Shown piece by piece: positions 288 through 47,362 of a stretch of DNA of 50,756 bases. Source of the DNA: a virus; the IMG/VR virus record IMGVR_UViG_3300050821_008276, positions 1 to 50,756 of that record; one strand, given 5' to 3'. The notes below the pieces were generated by a model. It saw only the letters and a list, made by a program, of their open reading frames with translations. It was not told the origin of the DNA and searched no databases. Each line of letters starts with the position of its first letter. The first letter of the stretch is position 1. Both the position numbers and the translations under genes were made by a program.

Positions 288-1280
288 CTAGTGTCTTTCC
301 AAAGGATTCCAGTTACGTTCCCCGTAGTTCATCGCCATCCAGGCTTGATGATCACGGACCATACAGGGGGTTTTGAACTCACACCCACCGTATTCGTTGC
401 AGGGCTCGCCGAAGGCGGGAATGCTGATGCCTTCGAGGTAATGCTTCTTCGCAATCTCCAGCTTGCGGCAAGTCCCTTCCAGCCATTCGTCTACTTTCCA
501 GTCAGGCTGATGAACGATGGCTTGGGCGGAGTCGTATTTGGTTTTGAGTATAGAGATTCCTCGTACCAAAGTTCCATCGATCTTGATTCCAAGCTCACGC
601 GCACCCCATGCGTAGGAAGCAAACTGCCCCCGCATATCCCACTGATTAGGCCAGCTTTGGCCAAGTGAAGAGGTAGTTTTGTCGTCCACCTGATAACACC
701 CGCCGTATATGTCCAGAATGACGTCGAGCCGCCCGCAATAAAGAAGGGGCATGTTGGTCTCCGGATGGTTGACTGGAAACGGTAGACAAAAATTCCACTC
801 AATGCCAGGTTTGTCACCAATAGTCGCAATGGTGCCGAAGGTGGCATCATCGAGCGGGAAGACGCTGGAGTAAAACTCGAGAGCTCCACACATTCTGTCC
901 AAGGTTTTGGCTGTGTTATGCTCAGGCTCTTCGCCGTAGGCCAGCATAAGGGCTTCGATGCCAAGAGTGAGACAGTCGTCAGGGGTCTCAATGACGCAAT
1001 GCTCTTGGCCAGTGACCTCCATTCGGATAGCTCCGGTGTTGTCGTCAGTGATGGCGGTGTATACATCTCGATCGAAGAACCCTTGGTAATAGGCGAGGCG
1101 CTGAACTTCAAGGCCTCGCGCAAAAGCTGCTCCTGCTGTGAGGTGTATGGACTTTCCTCCGTCGGGGGTGTAATTTTGAATATATGCTGCATCGAATCTC
1201 CTGGAGCAAGAGAGCGCGGCGATCATTGTCGAATCAATGACGGAGGGGAAGCGCCGAGCGTGGCCGGTGGGGTTAAGCAT
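288..1280 (-). CDS. PD-(D/E)XK nuclease, Cas4/RecB-like with Fe-S cysteines
   Basis: This 330-aa protein has the core of a RecB/Cas4-type exonuclease: GRLD with D186, followed by VDDK with D199/D200 and K201 on the next strand. One cysteine lies near the N-terminus (C25, in SCSRRF) and three near the C-terminus (C294, C300, C306), the spacing known for 4Fe-4S clusters in Cas4 and AddB nucleases. The likely role is 5'-3' or ssDNA exonuclease work in phage recombination or replication, beside the RecA-like ATPase on the same strand. The start ATG overlaps the upstream stop (TAATG) and follows GGAG. There is no CRISPR context, so it should not be named cas4. Confidence 0.82.
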   Translation of the reverse strand: MLNPTGHARRFPSVIDSTMIAALSCSRRFDAAYIQNYTPDGGKSIHLTAGAAFARGLEVQRLAYYQGFFDRDVYTAITDDNTGAIRMEVTGQEHCVIETPDDCLTLGIEALMLAYGEEPEHNTAKTLDRMCGALEFYSSVFPLDDATFGTIATIGDKPGIEWNFCLPFPVNHPETNMPLLYCGRLDVILDIYGGCYQVDDKTTSSLGQSWPNQWDMRGQFASYAWGARELGIKIDGTLVRGISILKTKYDSAQAIVHQPDWKVDEWLEGTCRKLEIAKKHYLEGISIPAFGEPCNEYGGCEFKTPCMVRDHQAWMAMNYGERNWNPLERH

Positions 1281-2796: not shown

Positions 2797-3219
2797 TTAA
2801 AACGGTATGTCGTCGAACTCCGTGTCGGTGGCATCTTGCGCGGGCTTGCGCGGATACGGCGCGAAGACTGTGTCAGACGGAAGCTCCTCGACACTTTGGT
2901 CTGTAATTGCGAGCAACTTATTGATCTGCTCGTCAATTGCGTTCAACTCCATTTGCGCGGCCGCGCGGAGTTCAGTTTGCTTTTCATGCAAGCCGGCTAC
3001 CATTCCCATCACAACTTGTTCGCGCGTAAGTTTTTCGTTCTCGTCGAACTCTATCTCACGCGTACAAACTAGAACTTCCCCCTCCTTGCGATAAAACGCA
3101 ATGCCGTGCTCGTCGGCCCAGTCGTGAAGTTTGTACTGGATTTCTTCGACTGTTTTGTTTTTAGCATAATCGTAATGCTCGGCCAGACGAGCATAGATGC
3201 CTACGGTAAATTTTGTCAT
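2797..3219 (-). CDS. Small helical protein ending in an SSB-type C-terminal tip (FDDIPF)
   Basis: Start chosen at ATG 3219 (MTKFTVGIYA), which follows GGAGACATTGTG and overlaps the upstream stop; an open frame further upstream lacks a ribosome site. The 140-aa product has an N-terminal mixed region, a long helix or coiled coil at about residues 64-112, a Pro-rich linker, and ends TDTEFDDIPF. Bacterial single-strand DNA binding proteins end in DDDIPF, the peptide that recruits ExoI, PriA, RecQ, RecO and others. No OB-fold is apparent, and the phage's own ssDNA-binding candidate (45702-46142) lacks such a tip. It may dock on host SSB partners. A highly diverged SSB is the alternative. Confidence 0.72.
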   Translation of the reverse strand: MTKFTVGIYARLAEHYDYAKNKTVEEIQYKLHDWADEHGIAFYRKEGEVLVCTREIEFDENEKLTREQVVMGMVAGLHEKQTELRAAAQMELNAIDEQINKLLAITDQSVEELPSDTVFAPYPRKPAQDATDTEFDDIPF

Positions 3220-7273: not shown

Positions 7274-7630
7274 CTACTTTTTAAACTGTTCGCGCAATTG
7301 CCGCATCATTTCCTCTTGTGCAATTGCCTCTTTTGTCTCTTCCGCATTGGCTATCGCCAGCGGATTCGCCGTCGCATTACTCGTGTCAAACCGCAAAAAC
7401 CGTTTGACCTTCGTCAGTGGCGCTTGCACAATGTGAATCCCGCATTGTTTTGCCACCTCACACAATCCATCCTCCGGATCATTGCGCACTTCCGCGAGAA
7501 ACTTATAAAACGAAAGCCGTTGCCCCGCGCACTCACTCGCTGTTTTAAACTCAGCCAGCGCTTCACCTTCACTCGCCACCTGCTGCAGCGCTATCCGGAA
7601 CCATTCCGGAAATACTTTCTTACGTGCCAT
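7274..7630 (-). CDS. Hypothetical protein, 118 aa
   Basis: Begins MARKKVFPEWFRIALQQVAS, with ATG 7630 behind GGAGGTGAGAT. Helical, charged, ending in a Gln/Lys-rich helix (EEMMRQLREQFKK). Two cysteines (near 33 and 62) but no metal motif. Unknown function; small basic early proteins of this kind often bind nucleic acid or host proteins. Confidence 0.68.
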   Translation of the reverse strand: MARKKVFPEWFRIALQQVASEGEALAEFKTASECAGQRLSFYKFLAEVRNDPEDGLCEVAKQCGIHIVQAPLTKVKRFLRFDTSNATANPLAIANAEETKEAIAQEEMMRQLREQFKK

Positions 7631-39998: not shown

Positions 39999-40298
39999 TT
40001 ACCAGGAGCATCCACGGAAGTATATATAGCAGTAGGTTTTGTTGTCTTCGAAGTCTGTGTCCGTTGTTATGCGGGGAACAGCGCGCCACCAAATGTTTTT
40101 GTGGCCGTGCAATTGCTCAGTGAATTCAGCAATTGCCCAAGACATAAGCGAATCTACTTCATCCACAGGACCACGCCCATGTACTTTAAAGTGGTCAAAG
40201 CCATGTTCGTTGGTCAGGTCCGCGCGCTGTGCGTCGCCGCAGACAGTAATACCGTTCTCCGCTAACCAGGTGTTAAGTTTATCGAGTGGGTTATTCAT
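39999..40298 (-). CDS. Hypothetical protein, 99 aa
   Basis: ATG 40298 (MNNPLDKLNTWLAENGITVC) behind GGGGAGACTGCTC; overlaps the polymerase end by 4 bases. RGPVDEVDSLMSWAIAEFTE and WWRAVPRITTDTDF suggest a small alpha/beta fold. Family not recognised; it lies between polymerase and helicase. Confidence 0.68.
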   Translation of the reverse strand: MNNPLDKLNTWLAENGITVCGDAQRADLTNEHGFDHFKVHGRGPVDEVDSLMSWAIAEFTEQLHGHKNIWWRAVPRITTDTDFEDNKTYCYIYFRGCSW

Positions 40299-41023
40299 GA
40301 GCAGTCTCCCCAAGAAGTCTCAGAAGTCTTGATTCCCACGGGCATGACCATTGGGTCAGCATAGGGCACTGTGATTGTGCACAAGTCTCTAACCAATCGT
40401 AAAAAATAATCCTTTCGCTCCGCGGGAAACTGTCCGATAAGAGAATCATGCACTTGCATGAGCAGCTCGAGTCCTTCGCCATGTTCTTCCTCCCATTCGT
40501 CTATCGCCACAAGTCCCTTGTTGATGATGATCGAGGTTGTGGACTGGCCGATCCATGCGACGGCTTCGTTGTAGATAGTCCCCTCGATTCGATCAAAAAA
40601 CTTTCTACGATATCCGAAAGCGTTAGAGACAGTTGCGGTAGTATCCATTTGGCGTACGATACGCTCATGCCATGTCTGAATTTCAGGACATTTTTTAAGA
40701 TACCATTGTTGTACACGTACACAGCGAGACACCTCGAGTCCGATTCGTCCTGATATGTTTTCAGCTTTACCAAGATAGTTTGTTCCGTGGCATAGTGATT
40801 TGAACTGAGTGTAAGCAGGTTCAACAGTCTTATTAAAGCCGGGATCATTGTAGTACTCCTTGCCCATCTCGACATATGGTTTGCGGCCAGTCTTGAAACA
40901 GTCTTTGAGGAAGGCGCAGTCCGACTCCCAAGCGACCGTGCGTAGGTCGGCGGACTCCAAGTCCAGATCAAAGATCATCTTGCCTGGATCAGGCACTAGC
41001 ATTCTGCGTATATTTGGCAGCAT
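40295..41023 (-). CDS. DNA polymerase A, C-terminal catalytic part
   Basis: 242 aa with family-A palm motifs: A, MIFDLDLESADLR (D21); B-like, FKSLCHGTNYLG (K75, Y83); C, LLMQVHDSLIG (H192-D193). It lacks the thumb and the exonuclease, which are in the overlapping upstream frame. ATG 41023 has AAGGA only 2 bases away. Either it is made as a second subunit, or a +1 shift before 41023 joins it to the upstream part; a sequencing error is the third option. GTRKMLPNIRRMLVPD in its extended frame looks like continuous polymerase. Confidence 0.85.
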   Translation of the reverse strand: MLPNIRRMLVPDPGKMIFDLDLESADLRTVAWESDCAFLKDCFKTGRKPYVEMGKEYYNDPGFNKTVEPAYTQFKSLCHGTNYLGKAENISGRIGLEVSRCVRVQQWYLKKCPEIQTWHERIVRQMDTTATVSNAFGYRRKFFDRIEGTIYNEAVAWIGQSTTSIIINKGLVAIDEWEEEHGEGLELLMQVHDSLIGQFPAERKDYFLRLVRDLCTITVPYADPMVMPVGIKTSETSWGDCS

Positions 41024-42740
41024 TTTCCTTGTCCCTCTCCGCGTTGGTTTTGTTCTCTTTGCCCGGCAGATTTTGCATGTTCATACCAGAGCCAAAAGCG
41101 TTCTCGCTAGTACTGAATCGAAATGTAACCGCCCCTGCAATGTTAATGGAGCAGCGGAGTCTTCCGTCTGTATCGCGGACGTCGCGAAGGAATGTAGAAG
41201 CGTAGACAGAGACTGACCGGAACTCAGTGATGAGATCAATAAGAGGACCGACAATTGGCTCTCTCTGTCTAATCTTCTGAAGACATTCATCATCGCACGA
41301 AGGTTGTCGTATCTTTCCTGGCTTGGCTTGCTTGCCGCGCTTGTAGACTGGGGGGAGTTGGAGCTCGCCATAGAAAAACTCCTTCATTTGTTTGGGTGAC
41401 TTGGGGTTTAGAGGGTGACCGACGACGTAGGTTATGTCGGCGAGGAGTGAGGCGGCATGAGCGTCCATGTCTTTCTCGAGCTGTTGCCTCATCTCATCGT
41501 CGACTCGCATGCCACGGTTCATCATGCGGAGGACGGCTGGCCAAAGGCGCATCTGGAAATTGACTTGCTCGTCCAGCTTCAGCGCGCGAGCTACCCCTTG
41601 CAACGCCTCGTCGCATTCAAAGGTTCGAACACAATCTTCACAGTTGTACCGCCACAGCACACGTTCATCCATACTCGCCGACCAGGTCTTACCGTCGTCT
41701 TTCCAGTAACGGTAAGATTCGCAGTACATTGACGCCAGAAAATCCAGCGACTTGGGCACGCCTGGGAAGCACACGTGTTGATAGAGCATTGTATCTCTGA
41801 CAACTCGAGGGATGAAGTGGAAGTATCGGAAGATGTACTGGATATCGTACATAAAATTCTGGCCCACGACTGCAGCTCTCGCATGCGTGAGAAGGAGATA
41901 AAGTCGGTAGACAATTTCTGTCTCCTCTTCGAGGTTCCAATAGCCCTCGGGTCGGCGCGAGTCGAGGAAAGGGATGCATATCGCGTCGGTCTTGTTCCAG
42001 GCAATGCCGAGGCAGGCTGTGTGGAAGTTCCGGGTCTCGATGTCGACTGAAAGGGTTACCGGTTCAACAGCACGCTCAAGCTTCGCTTGAAGGAACTCCA
42101 GAACCGAGATCGCTTCGGCGAAGGTGGGCTCGACGCAGAAGTTGTATCGGGCGACAGGGAGGCCGTCCGTAAGTATTGATCTAGCCCGCCGGAAGTCTTG
42201 GACCACAATTCTTCTGAGAGACCATTGACGAAGTACTCCTGCGGGATTGTAGGTGGGGAGACAGGTTGGGCGCCAATCTCCGCTAAGCGTTGCTGTAAGT
42301 TGGCTTGCGCGCCAGGAGCCAATACCCCATTCGTTAGTAAGGACCCATAGAGCTGTGTTGCCGAGGGCGATGATGAGCTTAGGACGGACGGTCTCCACTT
42401 CCGCGCGAAGAAGTCGAATGCCTTCATATACTTCCGGCGATATGACTCGCCCGTTATAGCGTATTCCACCGCGGCTGAGGAGCGCAGCTTCTTCCGTTGC
42501 CGTGGAAGCAATCCAGTTGTTAATGTCGTTCCCCGGCGGCCGGGTGCGCGCGACGTTGGTAAGATAGCAGTCACTTCGTTTCATCCCTGCCTCGCCCATC
42601 ATGAGCGAGAGCTCAATACCGCTGGCACCCACGAAGGGCACACCCAGTTGCATCTCTTCCGCGCCTGGAGCTTCGCCGACGAGCATCACCTCGGCGTTAG
42701 GTGGGCCGACTGGTTTGACTTGATGGCCTTGGACTATCAT
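40989..42740 (-). CDS. Uracil-DNA glycosylase (family 4-like) fused to DNA polymerase A exonuclease/thumb part
   Basis: 583 aa. Residues 15-190 are a family-4-like uracil-DNA glycosylase: VGEAPGAEEMQLGVPFVGAS, TRPPGN (66-71) and PTYNPAGV; the N-terminal CxxC of the Fe-S cluster is missing. From about 225 a 3'-5' exonuclease follows with intact sites: D233-x-E235, D299 and Y365-x3-D369. The thumb and start of the polymerase domain run to NMQNLPGKEN, then a charged tail and stop. The palm is in the next frame (40295-41023). UDG-polymerase fusions are known from SPO1-like phages. Confidence 0.82.
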   Translation of the reverse strand: MIVQGHQVKPVGPPNAEVMLVGEAPGAEEMQLGVPFVGASGIELSLMMGEAGMKRSDCYLTNVARTRPPGNDINNWIASTATEEAALLSRGGIRYNGRVISPEVYEGIRLLRAEVETVRPKLIIALGNTALWVLTNEWGIGSWRASQLTATLSGDWRPTCLPTYNPAGVLRQWSLRRIVVQDFRRARSILTDGLPVARYNFCVEPTFAEAISVLEFLQAKLERAVEPVTLSVDIETRNFHTACLGIAWNKTDAICIPFLDSRRPEGYWNLEEETEIVYRLYLLLTHARAAVVGQNFMYDIQYIFRYFHFIPRVVRDTMLYQHVCFPGVPKSLDFLASMYCESYRYWKDDGKTWSASMDERVLWRYNCEDCVRTFECDEALQGVARALKLDEQVNFQMRLWPAVLRMMNRGMRVDDEMRQQLEKDMDAHAASLLADITYVVGHPLNPKSPKQMKEFFYGELQLPPVYKRGKQAKPGKIRQPSCDDECLQKIRQREPIVGPLIDLITEFRSVSVYASTFLRDVRDTDGRLRCSINIAGAVTFRFSTSENAFGSGMNMQNLPGKENKTNAERDKENAAKYTQNASA

Positions 42741-43347: not shown

Positions 43348-44615
43348 TTCAAAGCCTCCAATCGTTCAATCGCTATTCCGTGGAAAGCCGGGTCTAGTTC
43401 AAACCCAATCGCACGGCACTTGCACTCTTGCGCGGCAGGGAATATGGTCCCTGTTCCGCAGAAAGGATCGCACACGAGGTCGCCAGCCGCCACAGACCTA
43501 CGTAAGAGGTTTGTGTAAGCCCCCACAGGCTTTTGGGCAGCATGCCCCAAGTTTTCATCGGTGTCCGCACTGAATACATCCGAGACAATAGCGTTAACAC
43601 TTCTATCCCCCTTCACCGCGTACAGAACTAATTCGTACCCTCGACGAGGGCCCATAGTAGGCCAAGGCACACGACGACTACTAGCATGGCTTTTGCTATA
43701 AACCAAGGGAGTACGATGAACGCGCCAACCAGACTGACTAAACAACTCGCGAAGATAATGATACCTGTCAATATCGGCGAAGACATACATATGCGCCTTA
43801 GCTTTTGTAACATGATAGCTCCATTTAGCAAAGTCCACCATCATCTCGCGCCAGCGGTCGCCGTCAATGTCATCGTACTCGTGCATTACTTCGACAGCCC
43901 CGCCGCCGTCTTTGAAAGACTGTGCCCCCATGCCGTAAGGAGGGTCGGTAAGGATAACATCGATTGAGCCAGGGTCAACAGAAGCAGCCCTAAAATCACC
44001 AAGCTCCAGGCGATGCAGAGACGAAAGAGTTTTGACATTAACCGACTCCGATAGGCGAGTGAGACGAGATTTCTCTTCACGCTTTTGGAGGATCTTCATC
44101 GCGTCTTTCACGGACGGCGCCGAGGAGATCTCCTTGTCTTCGAGATGCTTGGCCACAATGAGTTGATCGCGGACTCGAGTGACATTAGAGTCAGTGCCCT
44201 CCCGCGTAGTCGCCGAGATACCATGGTCGGCATTCTGGCGCGTACGAAGCGCGTGGAGGAATTCAGTCGCGGCCGCTTTTTCCTGCCATGATAGATCTTC
44301 GCGCCGAATGTTCTCATCGAGCTGGGCCTCGTAGGTTTTCAGTTCAGAGTCGGAGTAGAAGACGACTGGGACTTGGCCCACTTCAAGTGTATCGTCCCCA
44401 AAGCGAACAGCAATTCCCATAGCAGCAAGGTGGCGACAGGCTCTTGTTCGACGCTCACCCGCGATAAGACTGCCTCCAGGCTCCACAATAATTGGCTGGA
44501 GTAGTCCGACGGACTGGATGGAGTTAGCAAGCTCCATAACTTTTGCGCCATCAAAGTGCTTTCGCTGTCTGTCAGGGGCGACATGGATTTGCTCCAAAGG
44601 ATAGTAGTGTATCAT
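43344..44615 (-). CDS. ParB-like nuclease domain fused to a DNA methyltransferase
   Basis: 423 aa from ATG 44615 (overlaps the previous stop as ATGA). Residues of about 1-105 form a ParB/Srx-type domain (RQRKHFDGAKVMELANSIQS; GERR at 53-56), followed by a helical segment to about 200. Then a beta-class amino-methyltransferase: motif IV DPPY at 224-227 before motif I DPFCGTGT at 383-390. It likely methylates adenine N6 or cytosine N4 in phage DNA, protecting it from restriction or controlling replication. No restriction partner is seen. Confidence 0.85.
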   Translation of the reverse strand: MIHYYPLEQIHVAPDRQRKHFDGAKVMELANSIQSVGLLQPIIVEPGGSLIAGERRTRACRHLAAMGIAVRFGDDTLEVGQVPVVFYSDSELKTYEAQLDENIRREDLSWQEKAAATEFLHALRTRQNADHGISATTREGTDSNVTRVRDQLIVAKHLEDKEISSAPSVKDAMKILQKREEKSRLTRLSESVNVKTLSSLHRLELGDFRAASVDPGSIDVILTDPPYGMGAQSFKDGGGAVEVMHEYDDIDGDRWREMMVDFAKWSYHVTKAKAHMYVFADIDRYHYLRELFSQSGWRVHRTPLVYSKSHASSRRVPWPTMGPRRGYELVLYAVKGDRSVNAIVSDVFSADTDENLGHAAQKPVGAYTNLLRRSVAAGDLVCDPFCGTGTIFPAAQECKCRAIGFELDPAFHGIAIERLEALK

Positions 44616-45250
44616 GAGGGGAAGTCCTCGAGGGTAAGTACGGGCATTTGCATCCAAGTGGCAATACTGTGCTCGTTTACTGCTCCTCTCGATGTAGACC
44701 AGCCTGTAAGAAGGCAGATAGCATCGCAGGTAAGCAGCGCGCCAACATCCCGCTGAACAATGAGCCTGATTGGGTCAGTGATCTCGTTAAGCTCGGCCGG
44801 ATTGACCGCAGCGACGTGGCGGCGAATGCGAGCTGCCGCGGCATGGAACGCAGGAAAGTTGTGCTCGTCGTAACCAGTCATTGGGCCGGCGATATAGACC
44901 TTGGTTATTTCGACTTCTTCTTTCCCTTTCGCGCGGTATTTAATGCTATAGCTACAGCCTGCTTTTGCGGCTTGCCCGCTTTGATCTCCGTCTTGATGTT
45001 TGACGAGATTGCTTTCTTGGACTTTCCTTGCTTGAGCGGCATTGTAGAACTCCCTAAGTTCGAGAAGCTCGGTGGTTTCGCGCCCGAGCATGCGCATGTC
45101 GGACTGATACCAGTCCGCGATCATTTTGTACTCGGCGAGGTACTCGACTATATCGCGCTCGATAATGAAGCCGCCATAGTCTTTACAAAAGCCGGTGATC
45201 TTGCGCGCCCACTCGCGCGCGTCTTCCATTCGTTGTTCGATAGAGTTCAT
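44612..45250 (-). CDS. DUF4406 (nucleoside 2-deoxyribosyltransferase-like) protein, 212 aa
   Basis: The C-terminal half, TKVYIAGPMTGYDEHNFPAF then AAARIR..., DVGALLTCDAICLLTGWSTS, GAVNEHSIATW, is the DUF4406 fold related to nucleoside deoxyribosyltransferases. The N-terminal 110 residues are a helical, charged extension not part of that fold. A role in nucleotide salvage is likely by fold, alongside the MazG-like neighbour. Confidence 0.75.
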   Translation of the reverse strand: MNSIEQRMEDAREWARKITGFCKDYGGFIIERDIVEYLAEYKMIADWYQSDMRMLGRETTELLELREFYNAAQARKVQESNLVKHQDGDQSGQAAKAGCSYSIKYRAKGKEEVEITKVYIAGPMTGYDEHNFPAFHAAAARIRRHVAAVNPAELNEITDPIRLIVQRDVGALLTCDAICLLTGWSTSRGAVNEHSIATWMQMPVLTLEDFPS

Positions 45251-45701: not shown

Positions 45702-46142
45702 TCAGGCTGCTGAAACGGCAGTGATCTTTTCTTGCGGCTCGTTGTTGTAGATCTCGTGGCCGACCTGGACGCGCGCGTAGAGATGCATGAGGTCGCGCGG
45801 CTGAAACGGACCGTCGTTCTTGCCCATGGCCTTGCGGAACTTGCCAAGCTTAACGTTCTTGCCCTTGCCTTCGGCGAGGTCGCCGTTTTCGTCCAGCTCA
45901 AGCATGATGCCGTAGGTGAGGATGAGGCGAGCGCGGCCTGTGCGGTCTTTCTGATGGTCGTCTTCGATCTCAAAGACCACGTCGAAGCGAGCCCAAGGAG
46001 CTTGGGATTTTTCCGAAAAGCCATTGGCAGCCTTGACGTCTGCGACGAAGGCAGAGTAAACACCAGGCTCGATAAGAATCCGTTCGGTGGAAGTCGGGCC
46101 AGAGATCTGGGTGTCGAGGAAACTGTTTGCGTCGAATGCCAT
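45702..46142 (-). CDS. Probable ssDNA-binding OB-fold-like protein, 146 aa
   Basis: Start at ATG 46142 (MAFDANSFLDTQISGPTSTE). PGVYSAFVADVKAANGFSEK, WARFDVVFEIED, KNVKLGKFRKAMGKNDGPFQ and LYARVQVGHEIYNNEPQEKI fit a phage family seen next to Sak4/RecA-like genes that is thought to bind ssDNA. It has no acidic SSB tip at its end. Predicted role: coating ssDNA in replication and recombination. Confidence 0.66.
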   Translation of the reverse strand: MAFDANSFLDTQISGPTSTERILIEPGVYSAFVADVKAANGFSEKSQAPWARFDVVFEIEDDHQKDRTGRARLILTYGIMLELDENGDLAEGKGKNVKLGKFRKAMGKNDGPFQPRDLMHLYARVQVGHEIYNNEPQEKITAVSAA

Positions 46143-46170: not shown

Positions 46171-46461
46171 TTACTGGATAGTGGTGAGGTCGTCAGCCTC
46201 GGGACCAACGAGGCCCTCCTTTTTAACGCCTAGAAATCGTTCGTCTTGCTCGATGCAGTCCATGATTTCCATGATCTTCATCATCTGGGTACTTTCGTCG
46301 ATGCTACGGCCAGCGGCCATAATACGCCCGGCACCGCTGGACCAGCCCATGTAGAAAAAGACTTTGCACATCTTTTTCATCAAGGGCGGCATCTTCATCT
46401 CAACCCGCTTGCCGTTCGGGTTGATGGCTTTGTCCCAGTCTTGCTCAATTGGTGTTGGCAC
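46171..46461 (-). CDS. Hypothetical protein, 96 aa
   Basis: Met-rich, basic N-terminal half (KRVEMKMPPLMKKMCKVFFY) and an acidic end. It lies between the ATPase and the ssDNA-binding candidate and overlaps the ATPase gene by 17 bases. Helical; family not recognised. Confidence 0.65.
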   Translation of the reverse strand: MPTPIEQDWDKAINPNGKRVEMKMPPLMKKMCKVFFYMGWSSGAGRIMAAGRSIDESTQMMKIMEIMDCIEQDERFLGVKKEGLVGPEADDLTTIQ

Positions 46462-47362
46462 TTAGGCCTCCTGACTCGTTACGCGCCTTCCACTTTTTGA
46501 ATATCTGGCCAAAGTCTGGCGCGATGTTGGCCTTGATAGGCAGGTTGCGGGTCTTGAGATCCGCCTGGGTGTTCGCCGTGTCCCAATAGAATTTGTCTCC
46601 GTCCCGCACCGCCAATGCTACATCGCTGAACATTGGAGGTATCTTCGGTGGAAGGGCTTTGCCGAGGGTTGAGACAGTGATCTTACTCCCGCCAAGAACG
46701 ACGTCAGTCTCTCGTTCAATATGACTAAGGAGAATGAAGTGGCATCTGCAGGAGTCGGTGAGATAAAGGAGCAGTTTTTCCACTTGATCCTGAGCAATCC
46801 CCCACTCGGCCTGGGATTTGACTGGCTTACCTCCGACAGCCATTGACATAGCCGCGCGGGAGAGTCCGGTGAGTCCATCGAACGCAAGTACACGGTCCGT
46901 CCCCCAGTCGAGAACGCGGCCAAAATTTTGTCCGGTTCGCTCGTCCACAAATCCATTGAGATTCCGCATGAGGTCGATGTATTTGTTGTACTTGCCTCGA
47001 TTGTGGTCTTGCATCTTGGCGAGGTCGGCATGGTTGAGTGTGTTTACCGAGGTTGCCGCCGTGATCATCGCGTCGAGATCGCTGACGGTAGGTTGAATGT
47101 AATTCCAGTGAAGGTTCGGTGGAATAGCCTTGCCCTTGTCGACCCAATAGCCAAGGAGAGACTCCATTCCAGGCTCCAGCATCTGGACGAAGACTTCATA
47201 TCCATAGTCCACTGCCGTGGCGATAGATGTAGTTTTTCCTGAACCAGTAGGACCTTCAATGAGGACGTTGACGCCTGGTAGATTCCCGGCGCGCAGGTAG
47301 TCAGGTGTGACTGCCACCGCGGGGGGAGTCTGGGGCTTGGTAGCGGAAAGTTGGTCACTCAC
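46445..47362 (-). CDS. RecA/Sak4-like single-strand annealing or recombination ATPase
   Basis: 305 aa. NVLIEGPTGSGKTTS is Walker A (G37-T44), RVLAFDGLTGLS Walker B, and CHFILLSHIERETDV a switch-like segment; this is the AAA_24/Sak4-type RecA core without the C-terminal domain of RecA. Such proteins drive phage recombination with an SSB partner, here probably the product of 45702-46142. The PD-(D/E)XK nuclease could provide the exonuclease. Confidence 0.78.
   Translation of the reverse strand: MSDQLSATKPQTPPAVAVTPDYLRAGNLPGVNVLIEGPTGSGKTTSIATAVDYGYEVFVQMLEPGMESLLGYWVDKGKAIPPNLHWNYIQPTVSDLDAMITAATSVNTLNHADLAKMQDHNRGKYNKYIDLMRNLNGFVDERTGQNFGRVLDWGTDRVLAFDGLTGLSRAAMSMAVGGKPVKSQAEWGIAQDQVEKLLLYLTDSCRCHFILLSHIERETDVVLGGSKITVSTLGKALPPKIPPMFSDVALAVRDGDKFYWDTANTQADLKTRNLPIKANIAPDFGQIFKKWKARNESGGLSANTN

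Follow-up and report, generated by a model that had tools for sequence, protein, structure and literature searches.

The 50,756-nucleotide stretch of virus record IMGVR_UViG_3300050821_008276 analyzed in this study (hereafter the window) encodes a protein, P0001, that ends in the C-terminal docking tip of bacterial single-stranded DNA-binding proteins (SSBs). The reading favored here, which we hold to be moderately probable, is that P0001 is a non-OB accessory replication or recombination protein showing its SSB-like tip to SSB-tip pockets, probably those of host enzymes, and recruiting or occupying them. P0001 is encoded on the minus strand, with its ATG at 3219 and its stop codon at 2797-2799; on the plus strand of 2797-3219, the same frame is closed. 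The product of 140 residues ends in ...FAPYPRKPAQDATDTEFDDIPF*, with the SSB-type tip DTEFDDIPF as its terminal nine residues, and the FDDIPF end noticed in a preliminary description of the sequence is therefore present on the predicted protein. That description also called the protein helical, with a Pro-rich linker: a long helix is indeed predicted at residues 66-108, but three strands and one short helix precede it in the model, and the linker contains proline but is short (approximately 23 residues). Since an ORF similar to the 60-residue acidic ORF likewise adjoins the tip gene in the nearest relative, these two genes probably form one transcription unit, judging from their arrangement (Table 1). 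Directly downstream of the tip gene, on the same strand (1899-2621), lies a gene for a 240-residue protein with a signal-peptide-like start and the look of an outer-membrane beta-barrel, of which diverged counterparts occur in two related phages (G003 and G004).

Table 1. Coordinates of the tip gene, its parts and associated genes in the window, and of small tip-bearing proteins in other phages
Feature	Position	Strand	Basis or remark
Tip protein P0001, 140 aa	2797..3219	-	Residues 48-112 match phrog_2479 (unknown function)
N-terminal beta-beta-alpha-beta domain, residues 2-58, fast-evolving	3046..3216	-	AlphaFold2, 4 sequences, block pLDDT 75-88
Long helix, residues 66-108, possible oligomerizing coiled coil	2896..3024	-	Block pLDDT ~57-78; overlaps phrog_2479 match
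Disordered Pro-containing linker, residues 109-131	2827..2895	-	pLDDT ~47-57; alignment
SSB-type C-terminal tip DTEFDDIPF, residues 132-140	2800..2826	-	Sequence; DDFPF in homologue P0003
Acidic ORF, 60 aa	3219..3401	-	Stop overlaps tip gene start (TGATG)
Probable phage ssDNA-binding protein, 146 aa, ends ITAVSAA	45702..46142	-	DUF669 weakly matched by 2/7 family members
Sak4-like ssDNA annealing ATPase, candidate phage-internal partner	46445..47362	-	phrog_124 E 4.9e-12
PD-(D/E)XK (RecB/Cas4-like) nuclease candidate, gene cluster of tip gene	288..1280	-	PDDEXK_1 E 0.035, weak
phrog_23504 proteins, phages of Erwinia, Escherichia and Sphingomonas	L085:2405-2635, L086:2435-2650, L087:2390-2629, L088:2438-2671		Near helicase, exonuclease, clamp or polymerase genes

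Related phages were retrieved by means of the gene for the SSB candidate (45702), and their records were searched for the tip protein. The nearest homologue, P0002 (62% identity to P0001), is encoded by phage contig IMGVR_UViG_3300050821_004725, while P0003 is 45% identical and has a different linker and the C-terminus GAPDDFPF. P0004 (44% identity) has kept the body and lacks the tip, ending in FAPRRHNDDVTDV. The preliminary description had held that loss of the tip in all homologues would speak against its proposal; among the four known family members, P0001 counted, three keep the tip (among them two that are closely related) and P0004 has lost it. A tRNA-Ile gene (L065:1896-1969) starts six bases past the P0004 stop codon, which suggests that insertion of the tRNA took away the tip, and the retention of the body in this member indicates that the body has a job independent of the tip. 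In the alignment, the residues FAP followed by a PR or RR pair recur in the linkers of the homologues. All four members match phrog_2479 over approximately 60 of the 107 profile positions, mostly helix (E 2.8e-7 for P0001 and 7e-8 for the best member). No real homologue of P0001 was found by tblastn among 50,697 annotated phages, and none was found in scans of GTDB genomes.

As had been stated of the ssDNA-binding candidate at 45702, its C-terminus (ITAVSAA) carries no tip. Its family was compared by hhalign with a two-sequence alignment of the tip-bearing phage proteins L022 and L031, both alignments being shallow. The phage also encodes a DUF3987 primase/helicase and a family A polymerase, and the replication and recombination genes share a minus-strand region with the tip gene; the PD-(D/E)XK nuclease candidate is found in all five related phages. 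The DNA polymerase A of the window (40295-42740, minus strand) consists of two overlapping ORFs split just before motif A, the first half carrying a fused uracil-DNA glycosylase domain. The same split occurs in G001, G002 and G003, with extra junction sequence in G003, and the gene is uninterrupted in G007; the split would represent either gene fission or an old insertion site.

One potential explanation for a tip on a separate protein is that it docks on another phage protein, with the Sak4-like annealase as the most plausible candidate (others being the nuclease, polymerase or primase/helicase), supplying in trans the tail missing from the phage SSB. The Sak4 of phage HK620 binds SSB-coated ssDNA only via NDYPPF, the terminal six residues of the cognate phage SSB (PMC5928155), and the window phage has both Sak4 and a tip-less SSB candidate. 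However, the same pair is present in G002, where the tip is lost, and in G003 and G007, which have no tip protein, and no other SSB-type tip was found in these three genomes. The absence of the tip protein from G003 and G007 implies that it is dispensable. We consider a phage-internal partner unlikely. Since all related phages examined have Sak4, those without a tip included, Sak4 in particular is unlikely to be an obligate partner on this gene distribution, and the idea that it requires P0001 is weakened; host partners are favored over it.

The tip is difficult to attribute to chance. Based on amino-acid composition, the probability of an ORF ending in [DE][DE][ILVFM]PF is approximately 4e-6, and that of FDDIPF approximately 5e-9; a regular-expression scan over all ORFs of the window found no other SSB-type end. 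Among 2353 ORFs of phage loci not selected for the tip (a set that includes overlapping reading frames and counts repeated loci), a single SSB-type end was found, belonging to a P0001 homologue. Compared with P0002, the last 22 codons of the tip gene contain six synonymous and no non-synonymous changes, whereas 53 residues differ over the other 118 codons (0/22 versus 53/118 non-synonymous codons, hypergeometric p 9e-6), with pN reaching 0.31-0.51 in sliding windows over codons 1-60. Within the last nine codons, there are four synonymous and no non-synonymous changes (pS 0.86, pN 0), and the stop codon has changed from TAA to TAG. Because the codon changes are exclusively synonymous and even the stop codon is altered, these sequence comparisons indicate that selection acts on the tip at the protein level, and that it does so independently of the body. 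Against the nearest relative, pN/pS is 0.39 for the tip gene and 0.04-0.12 for the polymerase, primase/helicase, Sak4 and SSB-candidate genes, and the tip protein is 62% identical while the SSB candidate is 97% identical. Two further minus-strand genes evolve much faster than their neighbors when compared with G001 (7274-7630, pN/pS 0.85; 44612-45250, pN/pS 0.60).

These data also bear on the proposal that the tip is merely an exposed acidic C-terminus kept for some other reason, or that the identity of the tails reflects recent recombination, with SSB pockets not used. The two nearest phages are identical over a run of approximately 29 nt upstream of the tip, and pS is lower over the last 22 codons (0.42) than in the body (0.71), so a recombination boundary is possible there. 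However, the tip codons themselves have a pS of 0.86 with zero amino-acid change, and DDFPF follows a different linker in a third, diverged phage, which makes this proposal decidedly improbable.

AlphaFold2 modeling of P0001 reached a pLDDT of 60 with two sequences and 71 with four. The four-sequence model has strands at residues 2-17 and 22-32, a helix at 37-45, a strand at 49-58 and the long helix at 66-108, the rest being disordered, and it contains no five-stranded OB barrel. No SSB profile was matched in PHROGs by any of the four members, or in Pfam by the two members scanned, and the SSB, Enc34, T7 and DUF669 profiles did not match the tip protein. These results agree with the earlier view that the protein lacks an OB-fold, and the confident OB model that would have counted against that view did not emerge; since confidence in the model is moderate, an OB fold is only disfavored. 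Foldseek searches of the model against the PDB and the BFVD viral models returned nothing at E <= 0.001. Sub-threshold Pfam, NCBIfam and PADLOC matches of the body to Imm75, PspAA or APS reductase were deemed chance, as were the designed TIM barrels that alone were returned by a PDB sequence search. That P0001 is itself a divergent ssDNA-binding protein of non-OB fold, with a tip working as in any SSB, is highly improbable: it shares the SSB layout of an acidic tip after a disordered linker and lies in the same minus-strand region as replication and recombination genes, but it has neither a matching profile nor an OB in its model, and a better conserved SSB candidate is already present.

The preferred reading thus remains that of a separate protein presenting its tip to SSB pockets. 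Recognition of the SSB tip by host proteins is through the acidic residues and the Phe at its C-terminus (PMC7913777, PMC4118853, PMC11981726). In P0001, the small beta-rich domain and the long helix would act as a scaffold, which the helix would probably oligomerize to give several tips per assembly, and the short disordered linker would present the tip. The terminal Phe, the Pro and the acidic residues could then dock in the SSB pocket of host proteins such as ExoI, PriA, RecO, RecQ, chi or DnaG, bringing these enzymes to the phage replication site or occupying their SSB pockets. The gene would belong to the early replication/recombination region of the phage and be expressed early. Since the tip is preserved while the body changes fast, the phage probably employs it to draw repair and replication enzymes in or to divert them. 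As a speculation, sensing of phage SSBs by defense systems (PMC13381803, PMC12887533, PMC10732053) is a possible reason for carrying the tip off the SSB; the passages considered from two of these reports (PMC13381803, PMC12887533) give no role to the SSB tail.

A scan of 2.9 million viral contigs for codons specifying EFDDIPF followed by a stop yielded 35 stretches. The corresponding ORFs encode SSB, Enc34-type, T7-type and DUF669 proteins, one group of T7-like primase-helicases and small proteins with no SSB family match. The T7-type primase-helicases include L012:636-2291, with the C-terminus LEFDDIPF, and others in L013, L018, L026 and L029; small proteins of no known family with EFDDIPF ends are encoded at L030:1384-1548, L034:9346-9516 and L019:9551-9877. 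Additionally, phrog_23504 (L021 and L024; gp57 of Erwinia phage AH03 and others) comprises small CxxC proteins with putative zinc-binding cysteines, whose homologues in 16 annotated phage records align through the last residue; the four inspected end in DDIPF, KVPF, DEIPF and KIPF. In three of these four, the gene lies directly downstream of an annotated helicase gene and is followed by sliding clamp or DNA polymerase genes, with an annotated exonuclease just upstream in two of the three, while a putative exonuclease and a thymidylate synthase are encoded nearby in the fourth record. The occurrence of phrog_23504 tips in replication modules supports, at the level of gene content, a wider deployment of SSB-like tips by phage proteins other than SSBs. 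We tentatively suggest, as a possibility short of even odds, that phages have repeatedly placed the docking tip of SSB on unrelated scaffolds other than SSB, encoded in replication modules, giving rise to a class of tip-presenting proteins that commandeer or obstruct the SSB-interacting enzymes of the host, of which P0001, with its frozen tip and fast-evolving body, would be a clear member.

Bacterial replication and repair have a hub in the SSB-interacting proteins, which phages are known to exploit chiefly by way of phage SSBs or of recombinases binding the host tip. A tip on a non-SSB protein would be the reverse strategy, and it offers a simple, testable handle in a 10-residue peptide and one terminal Phe. 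No description of a non-SSB phage protein that mimics the SSB tip was found in the open-access literature, most subscription papers being outside the scope of the search. If the favored reading is true, the tip signature could reveal tip-presenting proteins across phages from sequence alone.

Acidic C-terminal tails are present on gp4 and gp2.5 of phage T7, and T7-type primase-helicases provide a precedent for tips on non-SSB phage proteins. The T7-type primase-helicases ending in EFDDIPF resemble P0001 in this respect, but they are large enzymes with an unrelated body. The phrog_23504 proteins, like P0001, are small, lack an SSB family match, are encoded in a replication module and carry a C-terminal tip (DDIPF, DEIPF, DKIPF or KVPF); however, their CxxC body is unrelated. 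With phrog_2479, P0001 has in common the helix region (residues 48-112), and the match breaks off close to where the 107-position profile ends, short of the linker and tip; a weak relative in L078 has neither linker nor tip. Compared to the bacterial SSB C-terminus (DDDIPF), P0001 shares the final DDIPF, the acidic run, the terminal Phe and the preceding disordered Pro-containing linker, but it lacks the OB domain, and its linker is approximately 23 residues long rather than the 56 of Escherichia coli (PMC7145534). The HK620 SSB tail (NDYPPF), which loads Sak4 (PMC5928155), is likewise a phage-encoded SSB-type tip in a phage with Sak4; in HK620, however, the tip is on the SSB itself, whereas in the window phage it is carried by a separate non-OB protein.
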